DNA from: Mesorhizobium sp. M7A.F.Ca.US.006.01.1.1
GTDB lineage: Bacteria > Pseudomonadota > Alphaproteobacteria > Rhizobiales > Rhizobiaceae
Direction: 5' to 3'
DNA: 64,000 nt
Assembly: GCF_003997935.1 (NCBI RefSeq)
Contig: NZ_RZQL01000007.1
Span: forward strand, 1 to 64,000
The position numbers were made by a program, and so were the translations under genes. Positions within the stretch are counted from its first letter, which is position 1. Every line of letters begins with the position of its first letter. Below are positions 8,407-34,540 of this stretch, piece after piece. The notes under the pieces were generated by a model. That model worked only from the letters and a program-made list of their open reading frames with translations. It was not told where the DNA came from and searched no databases.

Positions 8407-8430
8407 GTTTACCTCCCTGACTGAGAGACC

Positions 8431-8457: not shown

Positions 8458-8517
8458 CAAACCCACCTCCGGACGCAACCAAGGGCGCGATCGGCGAGAT
8501 AAGGAAACGAACCGTCC

Positions 8518-9525
8518 ATGCTGCGATTCCTGCTCACGCGCATAGCGTCGGCAATCCCGGTCCTCGCCATTTTGAGCCTGGCCACCTTTGCCATCATCCA
8601 GGCGCCGCCGGGCGATTATGCCGACTACATCCGCTCGCAGGCGATTAACCAGGGTGGAGCCTCCTTCGCCGAGGCCGACGCGCAGGCAAAGGCCTATCGC
8701 GTCGAGCATGGTCTCGATAAGCCGCTGCCTCTCCAGTATCTCAACTGGATCGGCGGCATCGTCACCCGAGGCGATTTCGGCTACAGCCTCTACTACAACA
8801 AACCGGTCGCCGATGTGGTCGGAGAGCGCCTGCCGCGCACGCTCCTCCTGGCGCTGGTCTGCCATCTGCTGGCCTCGGTGCTGGGCATTACATTCGGCAT
8901 ATGGGCGGCGACCCGGCAATACACCTGGATCGACTCGACACTGTCGGCCATCTCTTTTCTCGGCATGACGGTGCCGCGCTTCCTGATGGCGCTGATCATC
9001 GTCTATCTCCTGGTCTTCCAGTTCAACGTGTCGGAGATCGGCTCATTCTTCTCGCCGCAATATGGTGGCGCGCCGTGGTCGTGGGCCAAATTCGTCGATC
9101 TGGTCAAGCATGTCTGGCCGGTGGTGGCGATCGCGACTTTCGGCGGGCTCGCCTACAATATGCGCGTCATGCGCGGCAATCTACTCGATACGCTGAACGC
9201 GCAATATGTCGAGACGGCAAGAGCCAAGGGGCTGACGGGTGCCGCCGTCGTCATGCGCCACGCCGTGCCCAACGCGCTGCATCCGCTCATCATGTATCAG
9301 GGCGTTGTGCTGCCCTATATGCTGACCGGCGAGATCGAGACCGCGATCATCTTCGCGCTGCCGACGGTCGGCCCGGCAATCGTCGGCTCCATGGCTGTCG
9401 GCGACGTCTATGTCACCGCCACCTTCATGATGGTGCTGTCGGCGACGCTGATCGTCGGCAACATCATCGCCGACATGCTGCTCGTCCTGCTCGATCCGCG
9501 CGTGCGCCAGTTCGGGGAGGGTTGA
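8518..9525 (+). CDS. agpB: Alpha-galactoside ABC transporter permease (DppB/OppB type)
   Basis: A 335-residue inner-membrane permease of the peptide/DppB class. The N-terminal helix LTRIASAIPVLAILSLATFA, a long periplasmic segment and then about five helices are visible. The EAA-type loop is around YVETARAKGLTGAAVVMRHA, where the ATPase docks. ATG 8518 follows ATAAGGAAACG. It pairs with AgpC, whose gene starts one base after this one ends. Oligopeptide-type permeases are used for alpha-galactosides in the S. meliloti agp system, so family alone does not imply peptide transport; neighbouring alpha-galactosidase genes decide the assignment. Confidence 0.9.
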   Translation: MLRFLLTRIASAIPVLAILSLATFAIIQAPPGDYADYIRSQAINQGGASFAEADAQAKAYRVEHGLDKPLPLQYLNWIGGIVTRGDFGYSLYYNKPVADVVGERLPRTLLLALVCHLLASVLGITFGIWAATRQYTWIDSTLSAISFLGMTVPRFLMALIIVYLLVFQFNVSEIGSFFSPQYGGAPWSWAKFVDLVKHVWPVVAIATFGGLAYNMRVMRGNLLDTLNAQYVETARAKGLTGAAVVMRHAVPNALHPLIMYQGVVLPYMLTGEIETAIIFALPTVGPAIVGSMAVGDVYVTATFMMVLSATLIVGNIIADMLLVLLDPRVRQFGEG

Positions 9526-9526
9526 T

Positions 9527-10666
9527 ATGCTGGCGCGCGATCCATCCCCTTCACCGCTGCCGGCCGAAGGCCCCATCGTCGCCAAACCGGCGCGCGGCAA
9601 CGAAAGCTACATCGCGCTTGCCTGGCGCCGGTTGAAGCGTTCCTGGACCGGTATGGCCGGGCTCTGGCTCGTCGTGCTGCTGCTGGTGATGGCCGTGTTC
9701 GCCGAGTTCATCGCGCCAATGGACCCGAAGGTCACGGATGTCGGCTTCGCTCCGCCGCAGGTGCCAAGGTTCCATGACAGAGACGGCGGTTTCACCGCAC
9801 GGCCGAGGGTCTATGCGCTGGCCGATTCGGCGGACCTCGATCCGGTCACTTTCCAGCCCGTCGTCGGTCCCGACTACGACCATCCAAGGCTGCTTGGTTT
9901 CTTCGTGCATGGCGCGCCCTACAAGCTGTTTGGGCTGCTGCCGGCGGACCGACATCTGTTCGGCTCGCTGGACGGCCAGCCGGTGCATTTCCTGGGCACC
10001 GACAAGTTCGGCCGTGACGTGCTGTCGCGTGCCATCCACGGCTCGCGCGTCTCGCTGATGATTGCGCTGACGGTCGTCTTCATCATCACCGTCATCGGCA
10101 CCACCGTCGGCATGGTCTCCGGTTACTTCGGCGGCAGGTTCGATGTCTGGATGCAGCGCTTCGTCGAACTGGTGCTCGCCTTCCCGCAGCTGCCGCTCTA
10201 TCTGGCGCTGACGACGCTGATCCCGGTCACCGCTCCCACCAACGTCTTCCTCGCTTTCGTCATCATCGTCATGTCGGCCTTGGGCTGGGCGCAGATGTCT
10301 CGCGAGGTTCGCGGCAAGACGCTGGCGCTGGCGCGGATCGAGTATGTGCGCGCCGCCATGGCGGTCGGCGCCACCGACCGGCGCATCATCATGCAGCACA
10401 TCTTCCCCAATGTGATGAGCCACGTGATCGTCGCCGTGACGCTGGCGATCCCGACGGTGGTGCTGCTCGAATCCTTCCTCGGGTTCCTCGGCTTCGCCGT
10501 CAAGCCGCCGCTGATCTCGTGGGGCCTGATGCTGCAGGACACCGCGACCTATTCCGTCATCGGCACCTATCCCTGGATCCTGTCGCCGGTCGGTTTCGTG
10601 CTCGTCACCGTCTTTGCCTTCAACGCGCTGGGCGACGGCCTGCGCGACGCCGTAGACCCCTATTGA
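9527..10666 (+). CDS. agpC: Alpha-galactoside ABC transporter permease (DppC/OppC type)
   Basis: A 379-residue partner permease to AgpB. The first helix is near residues 44-62 (GLWLVVLLLVMAVFAEFI). It is followed by an unusually long soluble insert of about 100 residues before FLGTDKFGRDVLSR, the sequence that marks the start of the conserved OppC core. Five further helices and an EAA loop (EYVRAAMAVGATDRRIIMQH) follow. The start ATG lies one base after the agpB stop, behind GGGGAGG. Length exceeds the usual 290-310 residues for this family because of the insert, which resembles the large periplasmic region seen in YejE-like members. Confidence 0.9.
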   Translation: MLARDPSPSPLPAEGPIVAKPARGNESYIALAWRRLKRSWTGMAGLWLVVLLLVMAVFAEFIAPMDPKVTDVGFAPPQVPRFHDRDGGFTARPRVYALADSADLDPVTFQPVVGPDYDHPRLLGFFVHGAPYKLFGLLPADRHLFGSLDGQPVHFLGTDKFGRDVLSRAIHGSRVSLMIALTVVFIITVIGTTVGMVSGYFGGRFDVWMQRFVELVLAFPQLPLYLALTTLIPVTAPTNVFLAFVIIVMSALGWAQMSREVRGKTLALARIEYVRAAMAVGATDRRIIMQHIFPNVMSHVIVAVTLAIPTVVLLESFLGFLGFAVKPPLISWGLMLQDTATYSVIGTYPWILSPVGFVLVTVFAFNALGDGLRDAVDPY

Positions 10667-10676
10667 GGTGGCACAG

Positions 10677-20002: not shown

Positions 20003-21517
20003 TCATGCCTTCAGCACAAGTGCCCCGGTTGTCCTCCTAGCCTCCAGGTCGCGATGAGCGTCGGCAGCTTGCGCCAGATCATACTGCGTGGGCGCGTCAA
20101 TCCTGATGACAGCTTGGCGTAAAGCAGCGAAAAACCGGTTGATGTGAGGGCCAAGCTTTTCAGGGCTGTCTGTGTAATGGGCGTAGTTCGGACGGGAAAT
20201 GGTGATCGACTTCGAAGAGAACCTACCGATGTCCCAATTTCCCACAGGTCCAGAGGCCTGACCGAAACTGACGAGATGGCCACGGATACCCAATGCGGCC
20301 AACGATCCACCGAACGTGTCATTGCCGACGGCGTCATAGGCGACATCTGCGCCCTTGCCTTCGGTCAAACGCATGACGGCCTCGGCGAAATTCTCTCTGG
20401 AGTAGACGATCACGTGATGGGCGCCGAGGCGTTCCACGATCCGGGCCTTGTCGTCGCTCGAGACGGTCGCGATCACCGTCGCGCCAAGATGGCGTGCCCA
20501 TTGCACCAGCAACTGGCCGACCCCGCCAGCTGCCGCATGGATGAGCACGACGGACCCGGGCTTCACGGAATAGACGTCGTGGAGCAGGAAGCTCGCAGTA
20601 ATGCCTTTCAACAGACCTGCCGCGGCAGTTGCATCGGCAATATCGTCCGACAAGTGAACCAAAAGGTCCGGTGCCATGTTGCGTCGTTCGCAGTATGAGC
20701 CGACCGGCGGGCATGCATAGGCAATCCGGTCGCCGACTGAAAAGCCCGAAACTTCGGGGCCGACCGCTGCGATGACGCCTGCGGCTTCCATGCCCGGAAC
20801 GCCTGGCGGCTGCAGGAGATCGAAATAGCCGGTCCTGCAATAGACATCGATGAAGTTGACCCCAATGAATGTGTGACGGATCTGGACCTCGCCAAGCGAT
20901 GGCGGCGCCAAGCCGATCTCCGCAAGCTGCAGAACCTCCGGTCCTCCGTGTCGCTCGACGAGGATTGCCTTGGTCCGTGTGCCCTGGGCGCTGGCTCCAG
21001 GCGGCTCCAGCTGGCGCCTCTCGGGGATCAACTGCGCCACTGGTTGCTCTGGCGTGGCCCCGGTTGGCTCGGCAACAGGCCTTCCGTTTAAGAGCCGGCG
21101 AACGGACTCAAAGCCGGCTTGGTAGATGCTTTCGGTGACGAGCTTGACCAGTTCATCACGGCGATGCGCCGGCGGATGGAACTCCGAGGACCATTCCCAG
21201 AAGGTGGCGTTGCCGTCCGTTACCGGCTTCAGCCGGATCGAGGCGACATAACCCATCAACGGCAACGGCGCTTCCAGCAGACAATAGCTCAGCCGCCGGT
21301 CCTTGTCGGATAAGGCCAGGAGTTGTTCACGCAACTCGCTGCCATCCGTAAGCCGGAAATGACGCACCGCGCCGATCGCATCGGCCGTATCACCGCCCTC
21401 GATCTCGCTGAAGGAGATTGCCGGATGCCAGCGCTCGTGCCCGTTGAAATCGCGCAGGACAGACCAGACGTCCTGGACAGGCGCGTTGATGATCGTGCTC
21501 TGGCAAACCTTGACCAT
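20003..21517 (-). CDS. SRPBCC domain fused to NADPH:quinone reductase-like domain
   Basis: A 504-residue two-domain protein. Residues 1-145 are an SRPBCC/polyketide-cyclase-like ligand-binding fold (INAPVQDVWSVLRDFNGHER, LLEAPLPLMGY, AFWEWSSEFHPP-type end). A 35-residue Pro/Gln-rich linker follows. Residues 182-504 are a medium-chain reductase of the QOR/zeta-crystallin class: VGVNFIDVYCRTG-like segment, GMEAAGVI, and the NADPH-binding HAAAGGVGQLLVQWARHLGA. No zinc ligands, as expected for QOR. Last gene of the long minus-strand run, 9 bp after a free-standing SRPBCC paralogue. The fusion suggests a hydrophobic or aromatic substrate delivered to the reductase; this is inference. Confidence 0.85.
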   Translation of the reverse strand: MVKVCQSTIINAPVQDVWSVLRDFNGHERWHPAISFSEIEGGDTADAIGAVRHFRLTDGSELREQLLALSDKDRRLSYCLLEAPLPLMGYVASIRLKPVTDGNATFWEWSSEFHPPAHRRDELVKLVTESIYQAGFESVRRLLNGRPVAEPTGATPEQPVAQLIPERRQLEPPGASAQGTRTKAILVERHGGPEVLQLAEIGLAPPSLGEVQIRHTFIGVNFIDVYCRTGYFDLLQPPGVPGMEAAGVIAAVGPEVSGFSVGDRIAYACPPVGSYCERRNMAPDLLVHLSDDIADATAAAGLLKGITASFLLHDVYSVKPGSVVLIHAAAGGVGQLLVQWARHLGATVIATVSSDDKARIVERLGAHHVIVYSRENFAEAVMRLTEGKGADVAYDAVGNDTFGGSLAALGIRGHLVSFGQASGPVGNWDIGRFSSKSITISRPNYAHYTDSPEKLGPHINRFFAALRQAVIRIDAPTQYDLAQAADAHRDLEARRTTGALVLKA

Positions 21518-21526: not shown

Positions 21527-21964
21527 TCAGCGGGCGAAGCGCTGCTTGAGCGCCGTGAAGGCGCTCTGGAATACACCTGTGCCGATCTGTTGCACCAATG
21601 CGCTTTCACGCTCGGGTGCACAGTCGAACTCGGCCTGCCACTCGGCGAACGTCATGTTGCCATCGGTTACAGGGGTCAGGGAGAGTGTGGCTATGTAGTT
21701 CTCGACCGCCATCGGGCTCTCCAGCATCGCATAGCTGCAGGAGAGGTCGTAGTCAGACAAAGCCAGCAGTTTCTCCCTGATCCGGCCGCCGTCCTTCAGC
21801 ATGAAATTGCGAATGCAGCCGATTTGGTCCGGATGCGCGTTCTGTTCGATGCGGCTCTCGGCGACAAACGGTGTCCAGCTCGGCAAGCCATTGAAGCTTC
21901 GGACAAGTTTCCAGACGTCCACAGCTGGCGCATTGATCGTCGACGACACATAGATCTTCGGCAT
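21527..21964 (-). CDS. SRPBCC family protein
   Basis: A 145-residue stand-alone SRPBCC (START/Bet v1-like) protein, clearly paralogous to the N-terminal domain of the next gene: both share INAPxxDVWxxxRxFNG, a REKLLALSD/REQLLALSD strand, LxPVTDGNxTFxEWxxEF and a C-terminal helix. The fold has a deep pocket for hydrophobic ligands. No signal peptide, so cytoplasmic. It is 17 bp after the flotillin gene and 9 bp before the fusion. Ligand unknown. Confidence 0.87.
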   Translation of the reverse strand: MPKIYVSSTINAPAVDVWKLVRSFNGLPSWTPFVAESRIEQNAHPDQIGCIRNFMLKDGGRIREKLLALSDYDLSCSYAMLESPMAVENYIATLSLTPVTDGNMTFAEWQAEFDCAPERESALVQQIGTGVFQSAFTALKQRFAR

Positions 21965-21981
21965 CGGGTGATCCTAAACCT

Positions 21982-24171
21982 TCACTGGTCGCGATCGTCA
22001 TCGTCGGTATCCTTGCCGCTCTTTGCCTTGCCTTTCTTGTCGCGGCTCAGGCTGGCTATGTCCTTGGCGTCTCGCAAAACGTCCGTCATGCGGCCGAGCG
22101 ATCCGCCCTCGATGCCGATCTCCTTCATCAGATTGTCGATCATCGGCGCCTGCACCCTGTAACGCAGCGCTGAATCGATGACCTCGTCGGTGACGTTGCG
22201 GCTGCCGCCCTGGCCACCGTTGATGCCGTCGACATGCAGAATCTTGATGCCTTCGATCTTCTCCATCGGCTTGACGCTCTCGCGGATGATGCCTTCCATA
22301 TGGTCCAGCAACTTGCCGCGCAGGCGCCCGGCGCGGGCTTCGTCGGAAAGTAGGTTCTCGGCCTCGTTGAGCTGTCTGTGACCGGCGGCGTCGACCTCGT
22401 AGCGCTGGGCTGCGGCCAGGGCATGGATCTTCTCCGCTTCCGCCGAAGCGACAGCAGCGATCTTCTGCGCTTCCGCCAGACTCTTGGCCGCCTTCATCTC
22501 GGCGTCGGCGGCCGAGATAATGCGCAGGGCATCGCGCTCGGCTTCCCGGGCGGCACCGATGAGGTCGGTCAGCTTGCGACGCTCGGCAATCTCGCGCTCG
22601 CGGGCGGTGAAGGCCTGTTCCTCGGCCTGAATGGCCTTTGCACGAACGGCTTCCGATGCGGCGATCGCGGACGAACGCTCCTGTGTTTTCTTGGCGATGT
22701 CGATGGCCTTCTGGATCTCGGCGATCTCGATCTTCTGGTCACGGTCGACCCCGAGCTGTCGCATGTCGCGGTCCTTGATCAGGCGGGCTTCCTCAAGACC
22801 GCGTTCTGTGGTGATGCGGGCACGTTCCACCTCTTCGCCGGCAGAGATCTCCGCTTCCTCGAACGCTTGGCGCTTTGCAATTTGCAGCGCTTCAAGGTGA
22901 CGCTCGCGCGCAATCCTCACCTCGTCGATGGCACGCTCTTGGCCAATGCGCGCGGTTTCCGTGGCCTGGTTCTCAACAATCTCGGCGCGGCGCTTTTCAG
23001 CCTCTGCCTTCGTGACTTCCAAGGCCTTCTCCGCCAAGGCGATCTGACGCTCAAGCTCCGCGATCTCGAGCACCTTCTTGCGCTCGATCTCCAGTCCGCT
23101 CTGCGCACCTTCGCGCTCGATGCGAGCCTTTTCCAGGGACAATTCCAGGGCGATCTGCTCCCGCTCGGTCAGTTCGCGCATTTTCATCTCGGTCTCGTCG
23201 AGGGACCGCCGGCGGGCGATTTCACGGCGCTGCGTGTCCTCTTCGCTCTTGATGCGCTCCTCGGTGATGTTTCGTTCCTGATTGAGGCGCGATTTCTCGA
23301 CGGCTTCGCGCGATGACAGCTGCGCCTGTTCGGATTCCTGGTCGCGGAGCGCGCGCTCGATGGCCAGCTCAGAGCGCTGCGAGGCACGGCGGATTTCGAC
23401 CTCGCGTTCCTGTTCGAGCCGCGCATATTCGGTGTCACGGTCGATCTCGAGCACCTTGCGCTGCGTATCGAGGTTCTGGTTGCGGATATCGACGAGGGTG
23501 CGCTGTTCAATCTCGTTGCGCATCCGGCGGCGAGTTTCGATGGACTCCGTTAGTTGCGTCAGACCCTCGGCATCGAAAGCGTTGGACGGATCAAAATACT
23601 CAAGGCTGGTCTGGTCGAGGTCGACGATAGCGACACTCTCAAGTTCGAGACCGTTAGCAGCAAGCGATTCAGAGGCGAGGGTGCGGACCTTGGCCGCGTA
23701 GTCGCCGCGCAGCTCGTGCATTTCCTCCAGGCTCATCTGCGCAGCGATCGTGCGCATGGCGCCGGCGAATTTTCCCTCAAGCAATTCGCGCAGGCTTTCA
23801 GGTTGCAATGTGCGCCGACCAAGTGTCTGCGCGGCGGCGGCGACCAATTCGCGACTTGCTCCCACGCGCACGAAGAATTCCGCGATCAGGTCGACCCGCA
23901 TCCGGTTCTTGGTGATCAACGCATGAGCGTCTTCGCGACGCACCTCGATGCGCAGCACGTTCATGTTGACGGGAGTTATTTCGTGCAGCACCGGTATGAC
24001 GAAAGCGCCGCCATTGACGACCACTTTCTCGCCCATGAAACCGGTTCGCACGAACGCTGTTTCCTTGGTGGAGCGGCGATACAGCCATCGCAGGATATAG
24101 ACAGCAATCACAACGATGATCGCTATGACGATCAACCACAAAAGGAACGTGCCAAAAGTCTGCGCGGCCAT
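21982..24171 (-). CDS. Flotillin-like SPFH protein with long coiled coil (YqiK type)
   Basis: A 729-residue membrane-anchored scaffold protein. One membrane helix lies at about residues 6-28 (TFGTFLLWLIVIAIIVVIAV), an SPFH/band-7 domain at about 45-215, and then an almost unbroken charged coiled coil to about residue 590, rich in Glu, Arg and Ala. The C-terminal part (near 600-680) is the conserved flotillin tail, followed by a Lys/Asp-rich end (KSGKDTDDDDRDQ). It resembles E. coli YqiK. Flotillins organise membrane domains; usually an NfeD-like partner is adjacent, and none is here. It sits between the transporter-fusion gene and SRPBCC genes. Confidence 0.88.
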   Translation of the reverse strand: MAAQTFGTFLLWLIVIAIIVVIAVYILRWLYRRSTKETAFVRTGFMGEKVVVNGGAFVIPVLHEITPVNMNVLRIEVRREDAHALITKNRMRVDLIAEFFVRVGASRELVAAAAQTLGRRTLQPESLRELLEGKFAGAMRTIAAQMSLEEMHELRGDYAAKVRTLASESLAANGLELESVAIVDLDQTSLEYFDPSNAFDAEGLTQLTESIETRRRMRNEIEQRTLVDIRNQNLDTQRKVLEIDRDTEYARLEQEREVEIRRASQRSELAIERALRDQESEQAQLSSREAVEKSRLNQERNITEERIKSEEDTQRREIARRRSLDETEMKMRELTEREQIALELSLEKARIEREGAQSGLEIERKKVLEIAELERQIALAEKALEVTKAEAEKRRAEIVENQATETARIGQERAIDEVRIARERHLEALQIAKRQAFEEAEISAGEEVERARITTERGLEEARLIKDRDMRQLGVDRDQKIEIAEIQKAIDIAKKTQERSSAIAASEAVRAKAIQAEEQAFTAREREIAERRKLTDLIGAAREAERDALRIISAADAEMKAAKSLAEAQKIAAVASAEAEKIHALAAAQRYEVDAAGHRQLNEAENLLSDEARAGRLRGKLLDHMEGIIRESVKPMEKIEGIKILHVDGINGGQGGSRNVTDEVIDSALRYRVQAPMIDNLMKEIGIEGGSLGRMTDVLRDAKDIASLSRDKKGKAKSGKDTDDDDRDQ

Positions 24172-24252: not shown

Positions 24253-26460
24253 TCATGCGCGCCTCTGCAGTTTCGGTGCGATTGCATGGAATGCAGTGAT
24301 CACCGCATCGATGAATGGCGCATCGTTGATGTTGGATCGGACCCGCTGAACCACACGCAGTGAGGTCTGGCGCACGGTTTTCTCGATCGCCTCAAACAGC
24401 GCATTGTCGGCTTCCTGATCGTGGAATGGCTGGCCGGGTGCGTCGAGCATCGAGACGCCGCCTTCGGGCAGGAGAAAGCGCACAGGCCCGTTCATGGAAT
24501 TCAGCCGCGCGCCGATCCATTCGCCAAACTGCCGGTTTTCGTCCCTGGTGGTGCGCATCAGGGTGACGTTGGGATTGTGGACGACGAACTTCCGGCTTTT
24601 GAATTTCTCCGGCACACTGTCGCGCGGACCGAAATTGACCATGTCCAGCGCGCCGGTGGATCCGACATAGGGCAAGCCCGTGCGTATCGCCGCACCGAAG
24701 CGATCATCGCTTGCCGGGAACACGCCGCCGACCACCATATCGGCTATTTCCGTCGTAGTCAGGTCGATGAAGGCTGACAGCATTCGGGAATCGGCGAGGT
24801 TCTCCATGGCCCGGCCACCAATGCCTGTCGCGTGGAAAACCAGGCAGTCATAATCCGCTTCCAAACGTTTGGTCACGGCCTGCACGGCGGGCGTGGTGAC
24901 GCCAAACATGGTGATGCCGACAGCCGGACGTGCCAGCTTTCGCTTGGCCTCCCAGGCTTCGCCGGAAGGCAGCTGCGCGACCATACCCGCCATAGCGTGC
25001 GCAGCGTTGCCCAGGACGGCCTCGGTGATCGAGTTGAGGCCCTGAACATCTGCGACCGAGTGGAACATCATGATATCGGCGCCACCGACATATTTGCCGA
25101 CGTCGCCGGCTGCGACGGTGGACACCATCAGTTTGGGGATGCCTACCGGCAGGACGCGCATGCCTGCGGTGGCCATAGTCGTTCCACCTGAGCCGCCGGC
25201 CGAAATCACCCCGCCGAGACGTGGCTCGCGTTCGATCCAGCGGGCGAAGGCCTCGGCCATTGCCGCGACCGAGCTGCCGCGCTCATTCGAAAACACCGCC
25301 GATGATCCTCGCGCATGCATGCCTGCGACCTGCATAGCGGGAACGTCCGCGCTCGACGGCCTTCCCGAGGTGGAGAGGTCGACTGTGCGAACGGGGATCC
25401 CCAGCGATTTCAGACGATCGGCCACGAACCGCAATTCCTTCGCCTTCGTATCGAACGTGCCGGCGACAAGAACGGTGCGGCCGATCCGTTCGGCGAGGGG
25501 GATGGCAAAGACCTTTTTCAGTTCGTCTTGAGGATTGTGTTTTTCGACAGCCGCTTGCCGCATGGCTGCAACCGGGACGTTCCATCGGTTTGGCAGCTCA
25601 GTGACCGGACGATAGATCCCATTCTGAACCACCGGCTCGGTGCGTGTGCCCAATCGGTCAATGCGGTAGACTTCCGCCAGTTGCTCTTGTGCTTCGGCGA
25701 TTGCGGCTGGAGTAACACCAGGTTCATCGGAGTGGCGGCCAACGCCCAGCAGGCGTTGCTGCAAGTCGCGATCGGCGGCAAGCGCCGAGGCTTCCATGAC
25801 CCGGTTGATGCGCCCGTTGACCATGATCGCGACGCGGTCCGACACGGCCGTTGCCACACCGATATTCTGTTCGATGACGAGGATCGCCATCTCGCCTTCT
25901 TCCGCCAGGCTGACGAGCATGCGCTCGACCTGTTCGACAATGACCGGCGCCAGCCCTTCGGTCGGCTCATCCATGACCAGCAGTTTGGGGTCGCTGAGCA
26001 GGGCACGCGAAATGGCCAGCATCTGCTGCTCGCCACCGGACAGTTGAGAGCCGCCATTGCTCTTGCGTTCCGCCAGGCGCGGAAAGGTCTGGTAGACACG
26101 CTCGACCGTCCAGTTGGCGTCGCGTTTCGACGACATCCGCAAATGCTCATCCACGGACAGGCTTGGCCAGACTCGCCTGCCCTGCGGGACGTAGCCGACG
26201 CCGAGGCGATGGATCTCGTGCGGTTCGAGCGAGGATATCTCTCTACCGTTGACCCGAATGGAACCGGATTGTGCGCGCTTCAGGCCAGTGATGGTGTTGC
26301 ACAGTGTCGTCTTGCCCATGCCATTGCGGCCGACGACCGACAACACGCCGGTTTCCAAAGTCAGCGACACGCCCTGCAGCGCGTGACTTTGGCCATAGTA
26401 GACCTGAAGGTCCTCGATCTTGAGAACCGCTTTGCCTGAGGAAGCAGCGCGCTCAGCCAT
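24253..26460 (-). CDS. LivF-type ABC ATPase fused to Tm-1-like (UPF0261) domain
   Basis: A 735-residue fusion. Residues 10-242 are a LivF-type ATPase: Walker A GRNGMGKTT at 44-52, LSGGEQQ at 140-146, Walker B LLVMDEPTEGLAP near 160-172. After an 85-residue linker, residues 329-735 are a complete Tm-1-like/UPF0261 protein: VLVAGTFDTKAKEL, SAGGSGGTT, TVAAGDVGKYVGGADIMM, MFGVTTPAV and FHATGIGGRAMENL. ATG 26460 overlaps the LivG gene by 8 bp and gives MAERAASSGK; the longer frame is not needed. UPF0261 proteins bind nucleotide but lack an established reaction; tomato Tm-1 is a relative. The fusion suggests a UPF0261 function coupled to uptake. Confidence 0.9.
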   Translation of the reverse strand: MAERAASSGKAVLKIEDLQVYYGQSHALQGVSLTLETGVLSVVGRNGMGKTTLCNTITGLKRAQSGSIRVNGREISSLEPHEIHRLGVGYVPQGRRVWPSLSVDEHLRMSSKRDANWTVERVYQTFPRLAERKSNGGSQLSGGEQQMLAISRALLSDPKLLVMDEPTEGLAPVIVEQVERMLVSLAEEGEMAILVIEQNIGVATAVSDRVAIMVNGRINRVMEASALAADRDLQQRLLGVGRHSDEPGVTPAAIAEAQEQLAEVYRIDRLGTRTEPVVQNGIYRPVTELPNRWNVPVAAMRQAAVEKHNPQDELKKVFAIPLAERIGRTVLVAGTFDTKAKELRFVADRLKSLGIPVRTVDLSTSGRPSSADVPAMQVAGMHARGSSAVFSNERGSSVAAMAEAFARWIEREPRLGGVISAGGSGGTTMATAGMRVLPVGIPKLMVSTVAAGDVGKYVGGADIMMFHSVADVQGLNSITEAVLGNAAHAMAGMVAQLPSGEAWEAKRKLARPAVGITMFGVTTPAVQAVTKRLEADYDCLVFHATGIGGRAMENLADSRMLSAFIDLTTTEIADMVVGGVFPASDDRFGAAIRTGLPYVGSTGALDMVNFGPRDSVPEKFKSRKFVVHNPNVTLMRTTRDENRQFGEWIGARLNSMNGPVRFLLPEGGVSMLDAPGQPFHDQEADNALFEAIEKTVRQTSLRVVQRVRSNINDAPFIDAVITAFHAIAPKLQRRA

Positions 26461-27238
26461 GCTTGCCTCCAAGGTAGATTTCCTGGACCTCAGGATCGGC
26501 CTCGATCTCCTGGGGCGTGCCTTCCTTGAACAGTCGGCCATTGTGCATCATCGAGACATATTCGGAGACACGAAGCGCCACGTCGAGATCATGCTCGATG
26601 ATGACATAGCCGATGTGCTTGGGAAGGCCGTTGAGGATCGCTACCAGATCACGCCGCTCTGTCGGCGACAGACCCGCTGCGGGTTCGTCGAACAATATGA
26701 ACCGGGGTGCGCCGGCGAGCGCCAGCGCAATTTCCAGCTGTCGCTGCTGGCCGTGGCTGAGTGTCGCCACCAACGCGTCGCGGTCGCTGTCCAAATGCAC
26801 GGCGTGGAGGATCGACTCGGCCTGAACTCTGTTGACGTCATTCAACCGCGGCCGAAGCAATGAGAACCGGCGGCGCGACACTCCGCGGCACGCCAGGAAG
26901 ATTGAATCGAGAACCGACAGCCCCTTGAACAGCTGCGAAATCTGGTAGGTCCGCCGCAAGCCACGCCTGATGCGTTCATGTGGGGGCAGATCGGTTATGT
27001 CTTCGCCGAAGAAACGGATGCGCCCGGCGGTCGGCAAGAAGTCGCCGGTCACCGCGTTGAAAAGCGTCGTCTTGCCGGCACCATTCGAGCCGAGGACCGC
27101 GCGCCGTTCACCGGCCGCGATCCTCATATTGATGCCGGAGAGCGCCACCAGAGCACCGAAGTGACGCGCGACGCCGTCCAGTTCCAGTGCGTAAGCACCA
27201 GTTCCTTGCAGACGGGAAGCCATGTCATTCTCGGCCAC
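26453..27238 (-). CDS. livG: Branched-chain-amino-acid-type ABC ATPase (LivG)
   Basis: A 261-residue cytoplasmic ATPase of the LivG type. Walker A GSNGAGKTT is at 50-58, the signature is LSHGQQRQ near 168, Walker B is FILFDEPAAGLSP, and the switch region is IIEHDLDV. It ends with the LivG-like VQEIYLGGKHG. GTG 27238 is preferred because AGGAG lies 9 bp upstream; ATG 27223 is also possible. Follows the binding-protein gene by 26 bp and overlaps the LivF-fusion gene. The symbol denotes family; the substrate of this transporter is unlikely to be leucine given its enzyme neighbours. Confidence 0.92.
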   Translation of the reverse strand: MAENDMASRLQGTGAYALELDGVARHFGALVALSGINMRIAAGERRAVLGSNGAGKTTLFNAVTGDFLPTAGRIRFFGEDITDLPPHERIRRGLRRTYQISQLFKGLSVLDSIFLACRGVSRRRFSLLRPRLNDVNRVQAESILHAVHLDSDRDALVATLSHGQQRQLEIALALAGAPRFILFDEPAAGLSPTERRDLVAILNGLPKHIGYVIIEHDLDVALRVSEYVSMMHNGRLFKEGTPQEIEADPEVQEIYLGGKHG

Positions 27239-27264: not shown

Positions 27265-28512
27265 TTATGGGCAGCTCGGATTGTCGCGGCTCACTGCGCC
27301 CAGCGCCGTGAAGTCCGCTTCGGCAATGCCGAGTGTCTGGTTTACCTGCGGAACCACCTTGATCAGCTTGTTCAACAGCGTCCCGTCTGCGTTTTCAGTC
27401 ACTTCCGTCAGGAAGATGTCGGCAATCGCATTGCGGTTCTTGTCGAGCGAAACCTTGCCCGTCGGCGTCTCAAAAGACAGCGACGAAAGGGTTTCGCGGA
27501 GCTTCGCACCACCATCGGACACATCGCCACCGACCTTGTCGAGGCCAAGCAGCGCGGCTTTCATGTTGATGTAGTAGGCATGGGCAAACAGCGACGGCGA
27601 CGGGAATGCACCTGGCTGCTTTTTGTAAGCCTCGACAAACTTGGTCCAGGAAGGGGTGTCGTTCGTGTCAGCCGTCGGACCGGCCGAAGGCGTTCCAACG
27701 AGCACGTCACGCAGCTTGCCCTTGGCCGTGAGCACTGTCTGATCGACAGTGATCGAGCCACCGATCAGCGGGGCCGCACCGCCGGACTGTTGGTATTGAG
27801 TCAGGAAGTTCACGGCATCTGCACCGCCAAGTGCCACATAGATTGCGTCGACATTGTCGGGGATGGCAGCGATGACCGAGGAGAAATCCTTGTTGCCGAT
27901 CGGCACCCAGGACTTCGACGGCACGTGTCCACCTGCCTTGCAGAATTCAGCCATGAAGCCGAACACCTGCGTGTAGGGAAACGAATAGTCCTCCGCGACG
28001 GTTGCTACGGTCTTGTAGCCCTTGTCCTTGAAGGCGTAAGTGCCGAGGCCTGCCATCCATTGCGCGCCATCGGTTCCAAAGCGGAAGAAGTTCGGGGCAG
28101 GATCCCTGAAGGTCGTGTCCTGGGCAGCAGAGGCGCCATTCAGGAACGTGACCGTCGGCTGGGTCTTGGCATAGTCCTTGACGGCCAGGCCTTCGTCGCC
28201 AGAAAGTGGGCCGATCAGAACCTTGACGCCATCCTGTTCGACCAGCTTGCGGGCCGCGCGCACCGCACTGTCGGGCGACGCGTCGGACGACCCCTTGACG
28301 ATCTCGATCTTTTTGCCGGCCACGGTGCCGGCGACCTCTTCCACGGCAGTCATTGCGCCGCGCTCGCTGTCTTCGCCAAGCACCGTGAAGGGCCCTTCGA
28401 AGGTCGCAAGCAGACCGATCTTGATGGTGTCGTCGGCGGCGAGAGCCAAGGACGGAGCGGTCAGTCCGCTCGCCAGTGCCAAGGCCAGTAATGTGCGTCT
28501 GTGCATCCTCAT
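27265..28512 (-). CDS. ABC transporter substrate-binding protein (type 1 periplasmic fold, LivJ-like)
   Basis: A 415-residue periplasmic binding protein of the branched-chain-amino-acid class (Peripla_BP_6). A signal peptide spans the first 25 residues ([21 protein letters not shown]), then IKIGLLATFEGPFTVLGEDSERGA, the usual ligand-cleft start. ATG 28512 follows GGGAGGAAATA. The gene is between LivM and LivG of the same transporter. Related binding proteins take up aromatic acids, amides or short-chain compounds as well as amino acids; the ligand here is not readable from sequence. Confidence 0.92.
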   Translation of the reverse strand: MRMHRRTLLALALASGLTAPSLALAADDTIKIGLLATFEGPFTVLGEDSERGAMTAVEEVAGTVAGKKIEIVKGSSDASPDSAVRAARKLVEQDGVKVLIGPLSGDEGLAVKDYAKTQPTVTFLNGASAAQDTTFRDPAPNFFRFGTDGAQWMAGLGTYAFKDKGYKTVATVAEDYSFPYTQVFGFMAEFCKAGGHVPSKSWVPIGNKDFSSVIAAIPDNVDAIYVALGGADAVNFLTQYQQSGGAAPLIGGSITVDQTVLTAKGKLRDVLVGTPSAGPTADTNDTPSWTKFVEAYKKQPGAFPSPSLFAHAYYINMKAALLGLDKVGGDVSDGGAKLRETLSSLSFETPTGKVSLDKNRNAIADIFLTEVTENADGTLLNKLIKVVPQVNQTLGIAEADFTALGAVSRDNPSCP

Positions 28513-28561: not shown

Positions 28562-29590
28562 TCACAGGCCGGGGCGCAAGGACTCCTGAGAAAAGTTGGG
28601 CTTGAACTTTGCCCACAACCCAAGAATTCCGTCTGGTGAAATGAAGACGATCACCAGGAAGACGAGGCCGATCAGCGTGTTGAAACGCTGCGCACCGACG
28701 AGATCGATCGCGAACGTCTGCATCAGGACGACGACGAGGGCGCCAAGAAAGGGTCCGATCGGATGCCGCAGGCCGCCAATGACAGCGATGATCAGAACAT
28801 CGATTGCAGCGTCCACACCGATGGTGCCGGGCGAGACGCGGCCGTTGAACCAGACCAGGAGCACCCCGGCCAACCCACCTATGATGCCGGCCAGGAACCA
28901 GGCGAACACCTTGTGGGCGGTGACGTTGAAGCCCAGAGCGCGCATCCGGCGCGGATTGTCACGGATCGCCTGCAGGGTCAGCCCGAACGTTGACCTGGAG
29001 CCGTAGAGGATCGCGGCATAGGCGAGCACCGAGAACCCAAGGCACAGGTAATAGAACGCCTTCGGATCGCGCCAGTTCACGCCCCAGAAAGCTGGCGCGC
29101 GTATGCCGGCATAGCCCGAATGGCCATTGAAGATCGCGTAGTTCTGCTGCGCGAAGTAGAAGGTGGCGGTGGCAATCGCCAGCGTGATCATGATGGTGTA
29201 GATGCCTTCGGTGCGGACCGATATCCATCCGATCAGGGACGAGGCGATCGCCGCGATCAGGATCGCAACCGGGGCCGCAATCCACCAGGGCCAGCCAAAG
29301 CCAAGAAGGTGGCTGTTGTTGTCGCCGAAGATCGCGATGCAATAGGCAGCGATGCCGGCAACGGTGATCTGCGCCAGGCTGACCATGCCGCCATAGCCGG
29401 CGAGCATCATCAGCGAAAGCCCAAGCATGCCAAAGATCAAGGAGTAGCCGCCGATCTGCGTCAGGAAGAAATCCGACGCCACCAACGGATACAGAACCAG
29501 CGCGATGCCGAGGAGAATGTGGCCCGCGCCAATTTTGTCCAGCCAGTTTGGCTGGGTTGCGAGGGGCGTGGATTGGAGGCTCATGGTCAT
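28562..29590 (-). CDS. livM: Branched-chain-amino-acid-type ABC permease (LivM)
   Basis: A 342-residue inner-membrane permease with about ten hydrophobic helices. LivM hallmarks are GYGGMVSLAQITVAGIAAYC and RTEGIYTIMITLAIATATFYF, followed by LQAIRDNPRRMRALGFNV, the ATPase-contact region. ATG 29590 overlaps the livH stop as ATGA, supporting translational coupling; a second in-frame ATG is at 29584. The longer reading frame reaching upstream lies inside livH and is discarded. Pairs with LivH encoded just before it. Confidence 0.92.
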   Translation of the reverse strand: MTMSLQSTPLATQPNWLDKIGAGHILLGIALVLYPLVASDFFLTQIGGYSLIFGMLGLSLMMLAGYGGMVSLAQITVAGIAAYCIAIFGDNNSHLLGFGWPWWIAAPVAILIAAIASSLIGWISVRTEGIYTIMITLAIATATFYFAQQNYAIFNGHSGYAGIRAPAFWGVNWRDPKAFYYLCLGFSVLAYAAILYGSRSTFGLTLQAIRDNPRRMRALGFNVTAHKVFAWFLAGIIGGLAGVLLVWFNGRVSPGTIGVDAAIDVLIIAVIGGLRHPIGPFLGALVVVLMQTFAIDLVGAQRFNTLIGLVFLVIVFISPDGILGLWAKFKPNFSQESLRPGL

Positions 29591-30636
29591 CGTGATTTGC
29601 CCATGATGCCTTGCGGCCGGATCGCAAGCGTCACGACCATGATGATGAAGGTCAGCACGACGCCGTAGGTCGGGAAGTAGACGAGACCGAGCTGCTCGGC
29701 CAGGCCAATGAGAAGCGCACCTATGGCTGCGCCTGATATCGAGCCCATGCCGCCAACGATGACGACGACGAGCGAGGCCAGCAGGTAACGAATGTCTTCG
29801 CCCGGCGCGACGGACAGCGCCGATCCACCGACGACTCCGGCAAAGCCGGCAAGTCCGGCGCCGACCGCAAAGACGATGGCAAAGACCGCATGCACGTTGA
29901 CTCCAGACGCCGAGAGCATCGCGCGGTCGTCGACGCCGGCGCGGATCATCATGCCGACGCGGGTTTTGTTCAGCATCAGCCACAGGCCGATGCCAATGAC
30001 GATAGCCGCGGCCAGGACAGCTATCCGATAAAATGGGTAGGTCAGAAAGACCGATGCGCCGTTGGATCGGACCGCCGTTATGACGGGCAAGGTCACTGCA
30101 CCATCCAGCCATTCCGGCACGGCGATCTGGTACGTGCCGCCGGCCCAGACGGCCAGCATCAGGTCGGCCGCGACAATGGAAATGCCGATGCTGACCAGGG
30201 TCTGCCTGAGATCGTCACCTTCCAGGCGGCGGAAGACGACGACCTGCATGACGACACCGATCGCCGCCAGCACGATGAAGCCGGCCGCGACCCCCAGCAA
30301 CCAGTAACCTGTGCGGTTCGCCACTTCGTAGCCGATATAGGCGCCGAGCAGATAGAGCGAGCCATGCGCCAGGTTGACGTTGCGCATGAGGCCGAAGATC
30401 AATGTGAAACCGCTGGCAACCAGAAAGTAGAGACCTGCCAGGGTGATGCCATTGAGGACGGCGCTGACGAAGGCTTTCTTCGATATCAGGATGGCGTTGA
30501 GCCAATCCGGCCAGGCGGCAAAAACCAGCCATGCGACGAGCGCGGCGACCAGAAGCCAGAAAAGGCCCCACGCCTGCCGGCGCGACACGCCGCCGCCCGA
30601 GATCCCGGACGAAGATGGCCGGTCCAGGATGCTCAT
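29587..30636 (-). CDS. livH: Branched-chain-amino-acid-type ABC permease (LivH)
   Basis: A 349-residue permease, longer than the usual 290-300 because of an extra N-terminal extension with one membrane helix (WGLFWLLVAALVAWLVFAAW at about 23-42). The LivH core follows: LNGITLAGLYFLVASGFTLIFGLMRNVNLAHGSLYLLGAY, interrupted here only by description, then NKTRVGMMIRAGVDDRAM as the ATPase-contact loop. It starts in ATGA overlap with the amidohydrolase gene before it, showing that the transporter and the enzymes belong to one operon. Confidence 0.91.
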   Translation of the reverse strand: MSILDRPSSSGISGGGVSRRQAWGLFWLLVAALVAWLVFAAWPDWLNAILISKKAFVSAVLNGITLAGLYFLVASGFTLIFGLMRNVNLAHGSLYLLGAYIGYEVANRTGYWLLGVAAGFIVLAAIGVVMQVVVFRRLEGDDLRQTLVSIGISIVAADLMLAVWAGGTYQIAVPEWLDGAVTLPVITAVRSNGASVFLTYPFYRIAVLAAAIVIGIGLWLMLNKTRVGMMIRAGVDDRAMLSASGVNVHAVFAIVFAVGAGLAGFAGVVGGSALSVAPGEDIRYLLASLVVVIVGGMGSISGAAIGALLIGLAEQLGLVYFPTYGVVLTFIIMVVTLAIRPQGIMGKSR

Positions 30637-31961
30637 GCAGTCAGCCGCCGGCGCTGTTCGTTGATGCGCGGCGCCTTATGGAATTTGCCGTCCTTCATGA
30701 TGGCGAGGATGCGGTTCTTGTCCTGGAGAATCCGGACGTCTGATATCGGATCGCCGTCGATCAGCAGCAGGTCGGCGAGATAGCCTTCCTTGATCAGACC
30801 GAGCTCGTCGCCCATGCCCATGATCTGGCCGCCAAACTTGGTTCCGGCCTGGATCGCCTCCATCGGTGAGTAGCCAAGCATCTCGACGAACGTCTGGATG
30901 TCCTTGGCATTGGTGCCTTGCGGCGTCCACGCAAAACCATAGTCGCCGCCGATGCAGACGCGGATACCACGCCGATGCATCTTCTTCATCGTATCGATGC
31001 ACATTTCGAGCTCGCGCTCATATTCGAGCGAAAGTGGCGAGCCCGGCTTGATGCCCCATTGCTCGGCATGGCGAGCAGTGTTGATGAGCCAGGCGATGCC
31101 GGGCGCAACGAAGTGCTTGTCCTTGGCTGCTTCAAGCATGTCGAGTGCCTCTTCGTCGGCGAAAGAGGCATGGTAGATGTTCTGGATGCCGTGCCTGATG
31201 CACTGCTTGACCGATCCGGATGAGCGCGCGTGCGCCGACAACACCTTGTTGCGGCAGCGTGCCTCCGAGGCCGCCATGGCGACCTCCTCCTCGGACATCG
31301 GTGTCTCTTCGGCGCCCATGCCGGTGATGCTTTCACCGGACAGGTTGAGCTTGATCGAGTCGACGCCGTATTTGATCAGCTGGCGCACGGTGCGGCGGAT
31401 TTCTTCCGGCCCCGAGACGACGATGCCGAGGTTGAGACCTTCATGCGGGATATGAGACGGCGACGAATCTCCGAGGCCTCCCACCGTGGTGATCTCGGGT
31501 CCAGCTGCAAGGTAGCGCGGGCCAGGAAATCGACCCTGGTTGATGAACTTCTTGCATACGACATCCAGCCTGGGCTTGGCTGCCGCAGCACCTCGACCGG
31601 CTGTAAAGCCCGCGTCCAGCACGAGCTTGGCCATTTCCATGGTGACCAGCATATGCTCCTCGATCTCCATCATCTGGATCGGGTCGATGCCGGGCGCATT
31701 GTTCCAGGACAGGTGCAAGTGGGCATCGATCATGCCGGGCATCAGCGTCGCGCCCATGCCGTCGATGACCGTCGCACCGCCACCATATGACGGTGACGAT
31801 GATGAGCCAAAACGTGACGAACCCTTGGTGATCTGCTTGATGCGGTTGCCCTGCACCAGCACTTCCCCGGTATAGGGATACTCACCGGTCGCGTCGAGCA
31901 CACGCACATTGGTGAAGAGCGTGCCGCCCGAACTGTTTCCGTTCCAGCTGTCTTCTGCCAT
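30633..31961 (-). CDS. Amidohydrolase-superfamily metal-dependent hydrolase
   Basis: A 442-residue enzyme of the amidohydrolase superfamily (imidazolonepropionase/prolidase-like group). Metal ligands: H81 and H83 in DAHLHLSW, the probable carboxylated Lys in IKLNLSGE, His in SAHARS and IYHASF, and Asp in IGGDYGFAW. An odd Ser/Gly-rich insert (near residues 48-62) lies before the metal site. No signal peptide. It is in ATGA overlap with livH and 51 bp after the alpha/beta hydrolase. It probably opens a cyclic amide, lactam or amide bond in the imported compound; the substrate is not identifiable. Confidence 0.9.
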   Translation of the reverse strand: MAEDSWNGNSSGGTLFTNVRVLDATGEYPYTGEVLVQGNRIKQITKGSSRFGSSSSPSYGGGATVIDGMGATLMPGMIDAHLHLSWNNAPGIDPIQMMEIEEHMLVTMEMAKLVLDAGFTAGRGAAAAKPRLDVVCKKFINQGRFPGPRYLAAGPEITTVGGLGDSSPSHIPHEGLNLGIVVSGPEEIRRTVRQLIKYGVDSIKLNLSGESITGMGAEETPMSEEEVAMAASEARCRNKVLSAHARSSGSVKQCIRHGIQNIYHASFADEEALDMLEAAKDKHFVAPGIAWLINTARHAEQWGIKPGSPLSLEYERELEMCIDTMKKMHRRGIRVCIGGDYGFAWTPQGTNAKDIQTFVEMLGYSPMEAIQAGTKFGGQIMGMGDELGLIKEGYLADLLLIDGDPISDVRILQDKNRILAIMKDGKFHKAPRINEQRRRLTA

Positions 31962-32012: not shown

Positions 32013-32792
32013 TCACCTATCAACGCGTCGCAAAAAATCGGCGAGCTTCTGGCTGCTTTCGCGGGGGCACTCAATGGTAGCCCAGTGTCCGCACCGATCG
32101 AGCGACGAGATTACGGCTCCCTTGATCCCATCGGCAAGCGCCTGGCCGACGCTCATCGGATTGACCGTGTCGGCGTCGCCGGTAACCAACAGGGTAGGGG
32201 CCGCAATGCGCCTGGGGTCGGCCGCCACCGCCTTCGCCAGTGCCTCGCAAGTGCGCGCATAGGACTCCGGATCCTGACGCGTTATCGACTCGCGCACAAA
32301 GGCGACCGCCGCAGGTGACGTCTCTCTTGTATGCGCCGACAGCGCATTGGCGACGATCTGATCGGCAATGTCGGCAATGCCGCCGGACCTGGCCAGTTGG
32401 GCTCGCTTGGCGAGGCCCACCCGTGTCGCTTCGGCAGGTTCGGCCAAGGCGCCGAACAATGCCAGCGAGGCGACCAGCGCAGGATGTTTGGCAGCGATCT
32501 GCTGACAGACGATGGTGCCCATCGAATGGCCGATGAAATGAGCCCGCGTTACGCCCATGCCGTCCATGGCGCGGGCAACGGCCTCGCTCATCATTTCCAT
32601 CGTCAATGGCTCGAACGGCCTTGGCGAGCGCCCCGAGCCAGGCAAATCGAGCCGGACCACACGATAGCTGGAAAGTGCGGCCATCTGGGGCTGGAACATG
32701 TTCGACGTTCCGCCAAGACCATGGATCATCACCACCGGCATCCCTTCGCCGGTGACCTCGGCAACGATCGGTCCGATCGTCACGGTCGTCAT
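32013..32792 (-). CDS. Alpha/beta hydrolase
   Basis: A 259-residue alpha/beta-hydrolase-fold enzyme. The oxyanion segment is MIHGLGG (near 22-28), the nucleophile Ser90 is in GHSMG, the acid Asp is in VTGDADTVN (near 205) and the catalytic His is in DRCGHWATIE (near 233). No signal peptide. Resembles enol-lactone hydrolases such as PcaD and aromatic ring-cleavage product hydrolases; next to a fumarylacetoacetase-family gene this points to a ring-cleavage type pathway. Starts in ATGA overlap with that gene. Confidence 0.9.
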   Translation of the reverse strand: MTTVTIGPIVAEVTGEGMPVVMIHGLGGTSNMFQPQMAALSSYRVVRLDLPGSGRSPRPFEPLTMEMMSEAVARAMDGMGVTRAHFIGHSMGTIVCQQIAAKHPALVASLALFGALAEPAEATRVGLAKRAQLARSGGIADIADQIVANALSAHTRETSPAAVAFVRESITRQDPESYARTCEALAKAVAADPRRIAAPTLLVTGDADTVNPMSVGQALADGIKGAVISSLDRCGHWATIECPRESSQKLADFLRRVDR

Positions 32793-33667
32793 TGCGCACG
32801 CTCCGCGAAGCGGTTCTCCAGAGACCCAATGCCGTCGATCTCGACGCGCACGACGTCGCCGGCCTTCAGGTATCTCGGCGGATCAAACCCGATACCGACT
32901 CCCGCTGGTGTGCCCGTCGCAATGATATCGCCCGGGTTCAGTGTGATGCCTTGCGACAGTGTCGAGATGATCGTCGGGATATCGAAAATGAGCAGCGAAA
33001 TCTTCGAGTTCTGGCGCAGGTCATCATTGACGAAACAGCGGATAGAAGCACTATCGAGGTCGAGTTCATCCTTGGTTATGGCCCAAGGCCCCATGGGGCA
33101 AAAAGTGTCCTGGGACTTGCCTATCAGCCACTGACTGTATTTGCCCTGCAAATCGCGGGCGGTGACGTCATTGACGATCGTGTAGCCCCAAACGTGATCG
33201 TAAGCGTTTTCTTTCGAGATTCCGCGCCCGCCCTTGCCGACGATGACGGCAAGCTCAGCCTCATAGTCGATGGCCGTCGATACAGAGGAGTCGATCAACA
33301 CATTGGTGTTGGTCGGTATCACCGACTCTGGAACCTTGGTGAAGATAATCGGGTGCTTGGGGATGGTCCCTGCGGCCGCACTTGAGTCAAAACCGCTACG
33401 GGAGAATTCGTGGGCGTGCTCATGATAGTTCTTGCCGACACAGAAAATGTTGCGGGCCGGCAGCGGGATTGGCGCTTCGATCTCGACCTGGGCAAGCGGG
33501 ACCGGCGAAAGCGTGCGCGGCATCCCGGCGCCATTGCGACGGATCAACGCCAGAAGACCTGTCTGCGCCTGTTCGACGGGCAGATCAAAAGGCGAAATGG
33601 TCTGCTTTTCGAGATCGATGATGCCGACGCGACGCTCTCCGGCGATCGCGAATGTCGCAATTTTCAT
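32789..33667 (-). CDS. Fumarylacetoacetate hydrolase family protein
   Basis: A 292-residue FAH-superfamily enzyme. The core begins about residue 70 with NIFCVGKNYHEHAHEF, then TKVPESVIP, YEAELAVIVGKGGRGI with metal-binding acidic residues, and GDIIATGTPAGVGIG. This family cleaves C-C bonds or decarboxylates/isomerises products of aromatic catabolism, using Mg or Mn. ATG 33667 gives MKIATFAIAGERR after an AGGGAGAGG-like site; a longer frame passes the divergent promoter and is rejected. It is the first gene of the long minus-strand operon, divergent from the GntR regulator. Confidence 0.91.
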   Translation of the reverse strand: MKIATFAIAGERRVGIIDLEKQTISPFDLPVEQAQTGLLALIRRNGAGMPRTLSPVPLAQVEIEAPIPLPARNIFCVGKNYHEHAHEFSRSGFDSSAAAGTIPKHPIIFTKVPESVIPTNTNVLIDSSVSTAIDYEAELAVIVGKGGRGISKENAYDHVWGYTIVNDVTARDLQGKYSQWLIGKSQDTFCPMGPWAITKDELDLDSASIRCFVNDDLRQNSKISLLIFDIPTIISTLSQGITLNPGDIIATGTPAGVGIGFDPPRYLKAGDVVRVEIDGIGSLENRFAERAQ

Positions 33668-33809
33668 GCCTCTCTCCCTGAACCTTTTGTGAGCCAATAT
33701 GTGGCCTTTTAAGACACGATAGCCACGATTGGTTGGACTGGCAATGGGTGCCCTGCAAAATTTCCAGGTGATCTGGACAGAAAAGCGCATTTTTGGGTTC
33801 CGGACACTA

Positions 33810-33868: not shown

Positions 33869-34540
33869 ATGCCTAAGCTCGTTGCGAACGATATTGCCAC
33901 AATGCTCAAAAAGCGGATTTCGTCCGGTGAATGGCTTGAAGACGGCCGGATGCCGCCGGAGCGTGACTTGGCGGTCGAGTTTGGGGTGGCGCGCAACACC
34001 GTGCGGCGTGCAGTTGGGTTTCTCGAAGACGATGGGACAGTTGTCCGTCACGTCGGACGTGGGACGTTCCTAACGGCAAAAGATACCTCGTCGATTGCCT
34101 CGATGGTGGCCCGCATGGAAGGCACCAGCCCGGCCGATATGATGGAGATCAGGCAATTGCTGGAACCGGCTGCCGCGGCTTTTGCCGCGACCAATGCAAG
34201 TGCGGCCGAGCTGAATGCAGTGCGCGAAGCACATAAGACCGCCTGCGAGTCGCAAGACATGCCCACATTTGAGCATTGGGACGCGGAATTCCATCACCGC
34301 GTGTTCGCATGCTGCCGCAATGATTTTTTGAAGGAAATCCACAATCTCATGCGTGCGATCCGAAACCAGTCGCCCTGGTTCGAGATGAAGAAGCGGTCAT
34401 TCTCCGAAGAGCGCCGCCTGGTGTATTGCGAGGAGCATCAGGCGCTTCTGGATGCATTGCTCCGTCGCGATCCGGATGGCGCCAAGACAGCGATGCTGGT
34501 CCATCTCGGAACCGTCGGGAAGAACCTTCTGGGACGTTGA
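33869..34540 (+). CDS. GntR-family (FCD/FadR-type) transcriptional regulator
   Basis: A 223-residue regulator. The N-terminal winged helix is clear (RDLAVEFGVARNTVRRAVGF, then GTVVRHVGRGTFL); the C-terminal 140 residues are the all-helical FCD ligand domain, with metal-type His residues in HWDAEFHHRVF and HQALLDALLRRD. Such regulators commonly repress divergent catabolic operons and are released by the substrate or an intermediate. It faces the FAH-amidohydrolase-transporter operon, which is its likely target. Confidence 0.9.
   Translation: MPKLVANDIATMLKKRISSGEWLEDGRMPPERDLAVEFGVARNTVRRAVGFLEDDGTVVRHVGRGTFLTAKDTSSIASMVARMEGTSPADMMEIRQLLEPAAAAFAATNASAAELNAVREAHKTACESQDMPTFEHWDAEFHHRVFACCRNDFLKEIHNLMRAIRNQSPWFEMKKRSFSEERRLVYCEEHQALLDALLRRDPDGAKTAMLVHLGTVGKNLLGR

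Follow-up and report, generated by a model that had tools for sequence, protein, structure and literature searches.

A LivF/UrtE-type importer ATPase and a UPF0261 (Tm-1-like) domain joined in one chain in Mesorhizobium and other bacteria

In the 64,000-nucleotide stretch of Mesorhizobium sp. M7A.F.Ca.US.006.01.1.1 analysed here (contig NZ_RZQL01000007.1, positions 1 to 64,000, hereafter the window), a single gene at 24253..26460 on the minus strand encodes a chain of 735 amino acids that unites a LivF/UrtE-type ATPase with a UPF0261 (Tm-1-like) domain. Judged from the open frame, the domain matches and the homologous one-frame chains of other genomes, this fusion of an importer ATPase and UPF0261 is real. 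The frame contains no internal stop, which bears out the coordinates, strand and reading frame proposed in an earlier note on this DNA. The ATPase half (residues 1-240; 25741..26460, minus strand) matches ABC_tran at 28-167 (Pfam, 2.4e-30) and carries the Walker A motif at 44-52 and LSGGE at 140-144, both at the positions claimed previously, together with Q93 of the Q-loop, D164-E165 of Walker B and Gln198 at the H-loop position. The claim of a full LivF ATPase holds for the completeness of the ATPase and fails for its assignment to LivF proper: the half is LivF/UrtE-like, scoring 171 bits against the LivF equivalog cut-off of 441 and 225 bits against the UrtE cut-off of 285.8 (NCBIfam), so that neither equivalog cut-off is reached. 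A linker of residues 241-328 (25477..25740, minus strand) leads to the UPF0261 half (residues 329-735; 24256..25476, minus strand), in which the N-domain PF06792 was matched at 329-495 (1.9e-56, 191 bits against a cut-off of 27) and the C-domain PF23189 at 511-727 (7.4e-89, 297 bits against a cut-off of 27). Both Pfam domains exceed their gathering scores and place the half within UPF0261, the NCBIfam UPF0261 equivalog NF002673 also exceeds its cut-off in this second half (554 against 520 bits), and the domain at 329-735 is thus full, as had been proposed. No match to PF09370 (TBST) was found in the fused chain with Pfam, so its architecture is not that of plant Tm-1, and no permease domain was found in the window's chain by the same search. 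In public records the fused chain is labelled 'ABC transporter permease' (Variovorax and Yoonia; L005:8980-11232 and L006:9311-11473), while the Shinella stretch is without annotation.

A sequencing error near residues 245-329 had been named as what could have joined two genes. A species-genome scan yielded 45 distinct loci, and among the 37 near-full-length ones (L009-L045) both halves share one open frame in 36, the exception being Mesorhizobium sp. AR07 (L042), whose frame is broken. Full fusions were present in 12 of 289 genomes of a class sample (11 from the whole-protein search plus G272, which that search matched through the UPF0261 half only and which was counted since both halves of its locus L102 share one frame), in 14 of 398 genomes of a phylum sample, three of them shared with the class sample, and in 20 of 198 genomes of family f24. 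Furthermore, fused copies were found in replicons of Shinella, Variovorax and Yoonia among the matches listed in a plasmid search. The same chain in 36 of 37 loci, 20 family f24 genomes and plasmid records leads us to reject an error of sequencing or assembly, a reading to which we attach practically no probability; L042 demonstrates that the frame can break in a single assembly, and nothing else was found in favour of an artefact. The fused set used below comprises 62 rows, of which at least two repeat a contig (L112 repeats L037 and L113 repeats L009). Genome G581 (L114) has both halves and stands outside the counts of 14, 20 and 62; G792 (L173), whose frame of 733 aa keeps 1 of 12 ATPase residues, and G825, with the halves at the ends of two contigs, were left out. 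A contig filed as a Terriglobia MAG (L046) carries a Mesorhizobium-like copy of the operon at 66-82% identity that ends inside the fused gene, and may reflect transfer or mis-binning. No description of the ATPase-UPF0261 architecture was found in the open-licence papers searched, and the words 'ABC' and 'transporter' do not occur in the main text of the Tm-1 paper (PMC5028733).

The fused gene overlaps the upstream gene of a LivG-type partner ATPase by 8 bases (26453..27238; ABC_tran, BCA_ABC_TP_C) and is followed after 81 bases by a flotillin gene (21982..24171; Flot, Band_7), both on the minus strand. On the same strand, further upstream, lie the genes of a periplasmic binding protein (27265..28512; PF13458), a UrtC-like LivM-type permease (28562..29587; PF02653), a UrtB-like LivH-type permease (29587..30636; PF02653), an amidohydrolase (30633..31961; PF01979), a PcaD-like alpha/beta hydrolase whose score is below the PcaD equivalog cut-off (32013..32792) and a fumarylacetoacetate (FAA)-hydrolase-family protein of uncertain start codon (32789..33700; PF01557), with a divergent GntR/FCD regulator on the plus strand (33869..34540; PF00392, PF07729). 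Downstream of flotillin, again on the minus strand, are a small SRPBCC protein, recognised by a blastp match to a Variovorax SRPBCC protein and given here as a stop-to-stop frame whose start is not settled (21527..21973), and an SRPBCC domain joined to a quinone-oxidoreductase-type dehydrogenase (20003..21517; PF10604, Polyketide_cyc2, at 1-143, ADH domains within 209-502). The latter is a second fusion in the operon, and homologues occur in the other type I operons as defined below.

This core is conserved: each of LivH, LivM, the binding protein and LivG occurs in 61 of the 62 fused rows, all 62 have flotillin near the fusion, and 60 encode the small SRPBCC protein. Over up to 12 kb on the strand of the fusion, and limited by the length of each locus, a type I module of amidohydrolase and alpha/beta hydrolase was found in 44/62 rows, with the FAA hydrolase in 42/62, and a type II module with a molybdenum-hydroxylase subunit in 14/62; no row had both. 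Neither module was seen in L035, L039, L041 and L102, loci that are short except for L039. The window operon, with its divergent GntR regulator, belongs to type I, and the type II operon L104 encodes an FAD_binding_5 protein, a 2Fe-2S protein, two molybdopterin-binding proteins and two SRPBCC proteins. The same core operon precedes two different enzyme sets. Moreover, Liv-type importer genes also neighbour UPF0261 genes that belong to other branches, on the opposite strand in L137 and L148 and together with TBST in L143, and the association of UPF0261 with Liv-type importers therefore recurs.

Both halves of the fusion are well conserved. Out of 18 ATPase positions compared, 17 are invariant in 63 rows, and the remaining one, T51, varies between T and S. 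All 63 rows have Gln198 at the H-loop position; Gln was likewise found in 14/14 other frames with LivF as best match, against His in 73/75 LivG-type frames, which is why we see in it a feature of LivF-type ATPases and no sign of damage. For UPF0261, 34 columns are identical across 53 aligned proteins: all of these residues are kept in the window and in 60 of the 62 fused rows, 33 in the remaining two, and 33 or 34 in each of the 20 fusions of family f24. The residues between window positions 240 and 329 number 79 to 119 in 61/62 fused rows and 212 in one. An AlphaFold model of the whole chain has a mean pLDDT of 77.8, with values below 50 at 241-250 and 255-318, on account of which the linker of about 90 residues is probably disordered and best viewed as a flexible tether. 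The UPF0261 half was modelled at pLDDT 93.9 and has the fold of the solved members, superposing on tomato Tm-1 (3WRW) with a VIA Z of 47.5 and an rmsd of 2.8 over 384 aligned residues, and on 9MPY with a Z of 34.3 and an rmsd of 7.2 over 386. Beyond these two, the best fold matches (PurE-, epimerase- and cutinase-type) cover the N-terminal part only at Z about 9-11 and were rejected as a guide to function, being too general.

As far as the phylogenetic trees can be read, a single event most likely joined two genes that were neighbours. In a UPF0261 tree of 57 of the 84 rows (27 loci, mostly near-identical Mesorhizobium, were left out and L114 was not included), all 36 fused rows fall in a clade (95*) of 38 that otherwise contains just the frame-broken L042 and the unfused L123. 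One fusion and one later separation explain such a single clade with an unfused member. The tree of the ATPases groups the fused halves with the LivF of the unfused L007, L116 and L122 in one clade (96*) of 37, which also takes in L046 and L114. The unfused operons of L007 (Thermomicrobium), L116 and L122 run LivH, LivM, binding protein, LivG, LivF, UPF0261 and TBST, and this shared order suggests that the LivF and UPF0261 genes were seemingly adjacent before they fused. Repeated independent fusions, considered as well, find no support in either tree; both trees were built quickly, leave many forks open and contain some long rows.

Judging from genome content, UPF0261 is tied to TBST, which is a separate gene in those fusion operons that have it. 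The gene after the fusion is TBST in 27/62 rows and flotillin in 35/62 including the window, the flotillin-next rows being those of Mesorhizobium and the window, except L027, L034 and L099. Among the 289 genomes of the class sample, UPF0261 exceeds its cut-off in 32 and TBST in 26, and 26/26 TBST genomes are among the 32; TBST over the cut-off is missing from the other six (G117, G185, G193, G203, G222, G252). Below the cut-off the sample holds a TBST match without UPF0261 in G015 and a UPF0261 match in G269. In family f24, TBST lies directly behind 20/20 full fusions. Leaving G581 aside, 31 genomes of the family gave a P0001 match at 1e-80, and TBST is present in every one of them as well as, without such a match, in G750, G762 and G806. 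Furthermore, TBST was found in 19 of 20 chosen genomes, including Mesorhizobium genomes whose fusion operon is without it; in the genome to which the window belongs, the single TBST gene sits on a different contig, next to a UPF0261 gene that is not fused.

The genome of G581 has no match to PF09370 anywhere, and its fused chain (L114:7500-10200) has intact ATPase motifs and only 11 of the 34 invariant UPF0261 residues. Its reading as a frame-broken copy was rejected, for the frame is open and the UPF0261 half has diverged. This single case agrees with what a dependence of UPF0261 on TBST predicts, and the retention of a decayed half would also suit a structural or regulatory role. Outside the fused operon, an unfused UPF0261 gene is followed by TBST and an SRPBCC protein in L124 and L125 (G462, G465), which links these three families there too. 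The third UPF0261 copy of the window's own genome (L003 / L130, G000:C111) falls in a separate clade of eight rows (100*), and TBST was not seen in the fetched loci of that clade. According to an excerpt of PMC8963296, the COG pair for UPF0261 and TBST ranked third in a fungal list obtained by phylogenetic profiling, and a portion of PMC5028733 describes UPF0261 and TBST in one chain in plants.

Hints to the chemistry come from solved relatives and from neighbouring genes. The entry 9MPY (PDB) is titled as Saro_1862, a UPF0261 domain protein of Novosphingobium aromaticivorans, with bound acetovanillone. MarK is reportedly a kinase of aromatic monomers that starts the breakdown of acetovanillone, and from species and ligand Saro_1862 is probably MarK. 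The earlier view that UPF0261 has no settled function would then no longer wholly hold. In a UPF0261 tree with the solved members, 9MPY stands on a long branch and does not join the window's domain and Tm-1 in their clade, and its identity to the window's domain, 31%, is not that of close kin, so that function can be transferred from it by distant homology only. No mention of MarK or Saro_1862 was found in PMC13406360, PMC11837543 and PMC12607616.

The best solved relatives of the operon's binding protein are 4zpj (143 bits), 4ey3/4eyg/4eyk (101 bits for 4ey3) and 4evq/4evr (82 bits for 4evq), against 42 bits for the LIVBP 1z15. We take 4ey3 and 4evq to bind aromatic acids. Among the genes of the unfused Thermomicrobium operon L007 are also those of a PPDK_N and a PEP-utilizers protein. 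As a weaker hint by analogy, this pair is similar to the two components, ATP-grasp and swivel, of the aryl kinase HpeHI as given in part of PMC12167813, and since L007 has such a separate kinase-like pair, UPF0261 may do another step. A free UPF0261 gene was also seen directly behind a short PPDK_N-type dikinase in L142 (8126-10738) and in L141 (near 8014-10668); the L142 dikinase has PPDK_N and PEP-utilizers domains in 443 aa with no recognised domain between them, and UPF0261 might be the acceptor-binding partner of these dikinases. Against the kinase reading, the fusion neighbours that were annotated or scanned included no biotin carboxylase, the enzyme that comes next in the known aryl-ketone pathway.

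We tentatively propose, with confidence somewhat short of even, that the protein is an importer ATPase carrying its own substrate kinase on a tether, by which the incoming, probably aromatic compound is captured and phosphorylated. A Liv/HAAT-type ABC importer has two ATPases, and the fused protein would be one of these, with the UPF0261 enzyme held at its C-terminus by the flexible linker on the cytoplasmic side. The imported substrate may be an aromatic or other ring-bearing hydroxy compound, which the tethered UPF0261 half would bind as it leaves the transporter and phosphorylate with ATP, thereby trapping it, as MarK would if MarK is Saro_1862. TBST, of a PEP-hydrolase-like family, could act on the product or in complex with UPF0261, its gene lying either in the operon or, for most Mesorhizobium, at another place in the genome. 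The 35/62 rows in which flotillin follows the fusion directly, and the six class genomes with UPF0261 and no TBST, speak against this part of the reading. Flotillin and the SRPBCC proteins might gather or carry hydrophobic intermediates, and breakdown would be finished by the amidohydrolase, hydrolase and FAA-hydrolase set in type I operons or by the molybdenum-hydroxylase set in type II. The modification of a substrate at the inner face of the membrane, put forward in the earlier note, fits the likely single and ancient fusion, the importer genes of 61/62 rows and the aromatic ligand of 9MPY, while the distance of 9MPY and the room left for a structural or regulatory role weigh on the other side. 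A bolder form, which we consider quite improbable, is group translocation, in which the ATPase's own substrate kinase would couple import to phosphorylation through a second ATP site in the same chain, within a membrane metabolon with flotillin and TBST.

The join could also serve plain co-expression, with UPF0261 as an enzyme of a catabolic pathway whose fusion fixes expression and stoichiometry without any hand-over from the transporter. We hold this to be possible, if rather doubtful: in L007, L116 and L122 the two genes stand in the same order without being fused, L123 is an unfused copy inside the fused clade and the linker is long, variable and probably disordered, whereas the join, apparently of one origin, persists in many lineages, even in G581, whose UPF0261 half lost most invariant residues. 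The fused half retained in G581 despite that loss would in turn suit a regulatory domain, through which ATP or a metabolite inside the cell is sensed and importer activity adjusted accordingly. In importer ATPases such as MalK and MetN the C-terminal domain controls activity in this way, and UPF0261 is placed in just this position. Such a role nevertheless appears unlikely to us, as the nearly complete set of invariant residues in the fused rows has the look of a working enzyme and not of a sensor, free-standing UPF0261 proteins and tomato Tm-1 keep the same residues, and the link with TBST likewise speaks against it.

The fusion matters beyond this operon. UPF0261 proteins occur in bacteria, archaea (Haloferax was matched as a control), fungi and plants, and one of them became a virus resistance gene in tomato, while their native job is nearly unknown. 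The probably single origin of the fusion and its wide retention, together with the TBST partner and one case of decay, suggest that this branch of UPF0261 handles small molecules taken up from outside, and the operon in which the substrate can be sought is now named. If import and phosphorylation are indeed coupled, this would be an unusual kind of ABC importer. Both halves come from known families; it is their union within an operon of importer, flotillin and SRPBCC genes for which the papers searched gave no description.

Compared with LivF and UrtE of the HAAT importers for branched-chain amino acids and urea, the ATPase half shares the ABC_tran domain and its motifs, Gln at the H-loop position and an operon with LivG, LivH, LivM and a binding protein, but the fused chain scores below the equivalog cut-offs and bears a whole UPF0261 at its C-terminus. 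Saro_1862 (9MPY) is of the same family and fold and keeps 29 of the 34 invariant residues, but is a free protein of about 406 residues, outside the TBST-linked clade. Tomato Tm-1 (3WRV-3WRY) falls in the same tree clade (99*) as the window's domain, keeps 34/34 invariant residues and shares the TBST partner; it differs as a plant virus resistance protein joined to TBST and not to an ATPase, as one portion of PMC5028733 has it. The two-component aryl-ketone kinases HpeHI and AcvAB offer a proposed analogy in the ATP-dependent phosphorylation of an aromatic compound as the entry step, while they belong, by the part of PMC12167813 consulted, to an unrelated family with ATP-grasp and swivel domains. 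The sugar phosphotransferase systems, finally, resemble the proposed reading in that import and phosphorylation would be coupled, with the difference that the transporter here is an ABC transporter.
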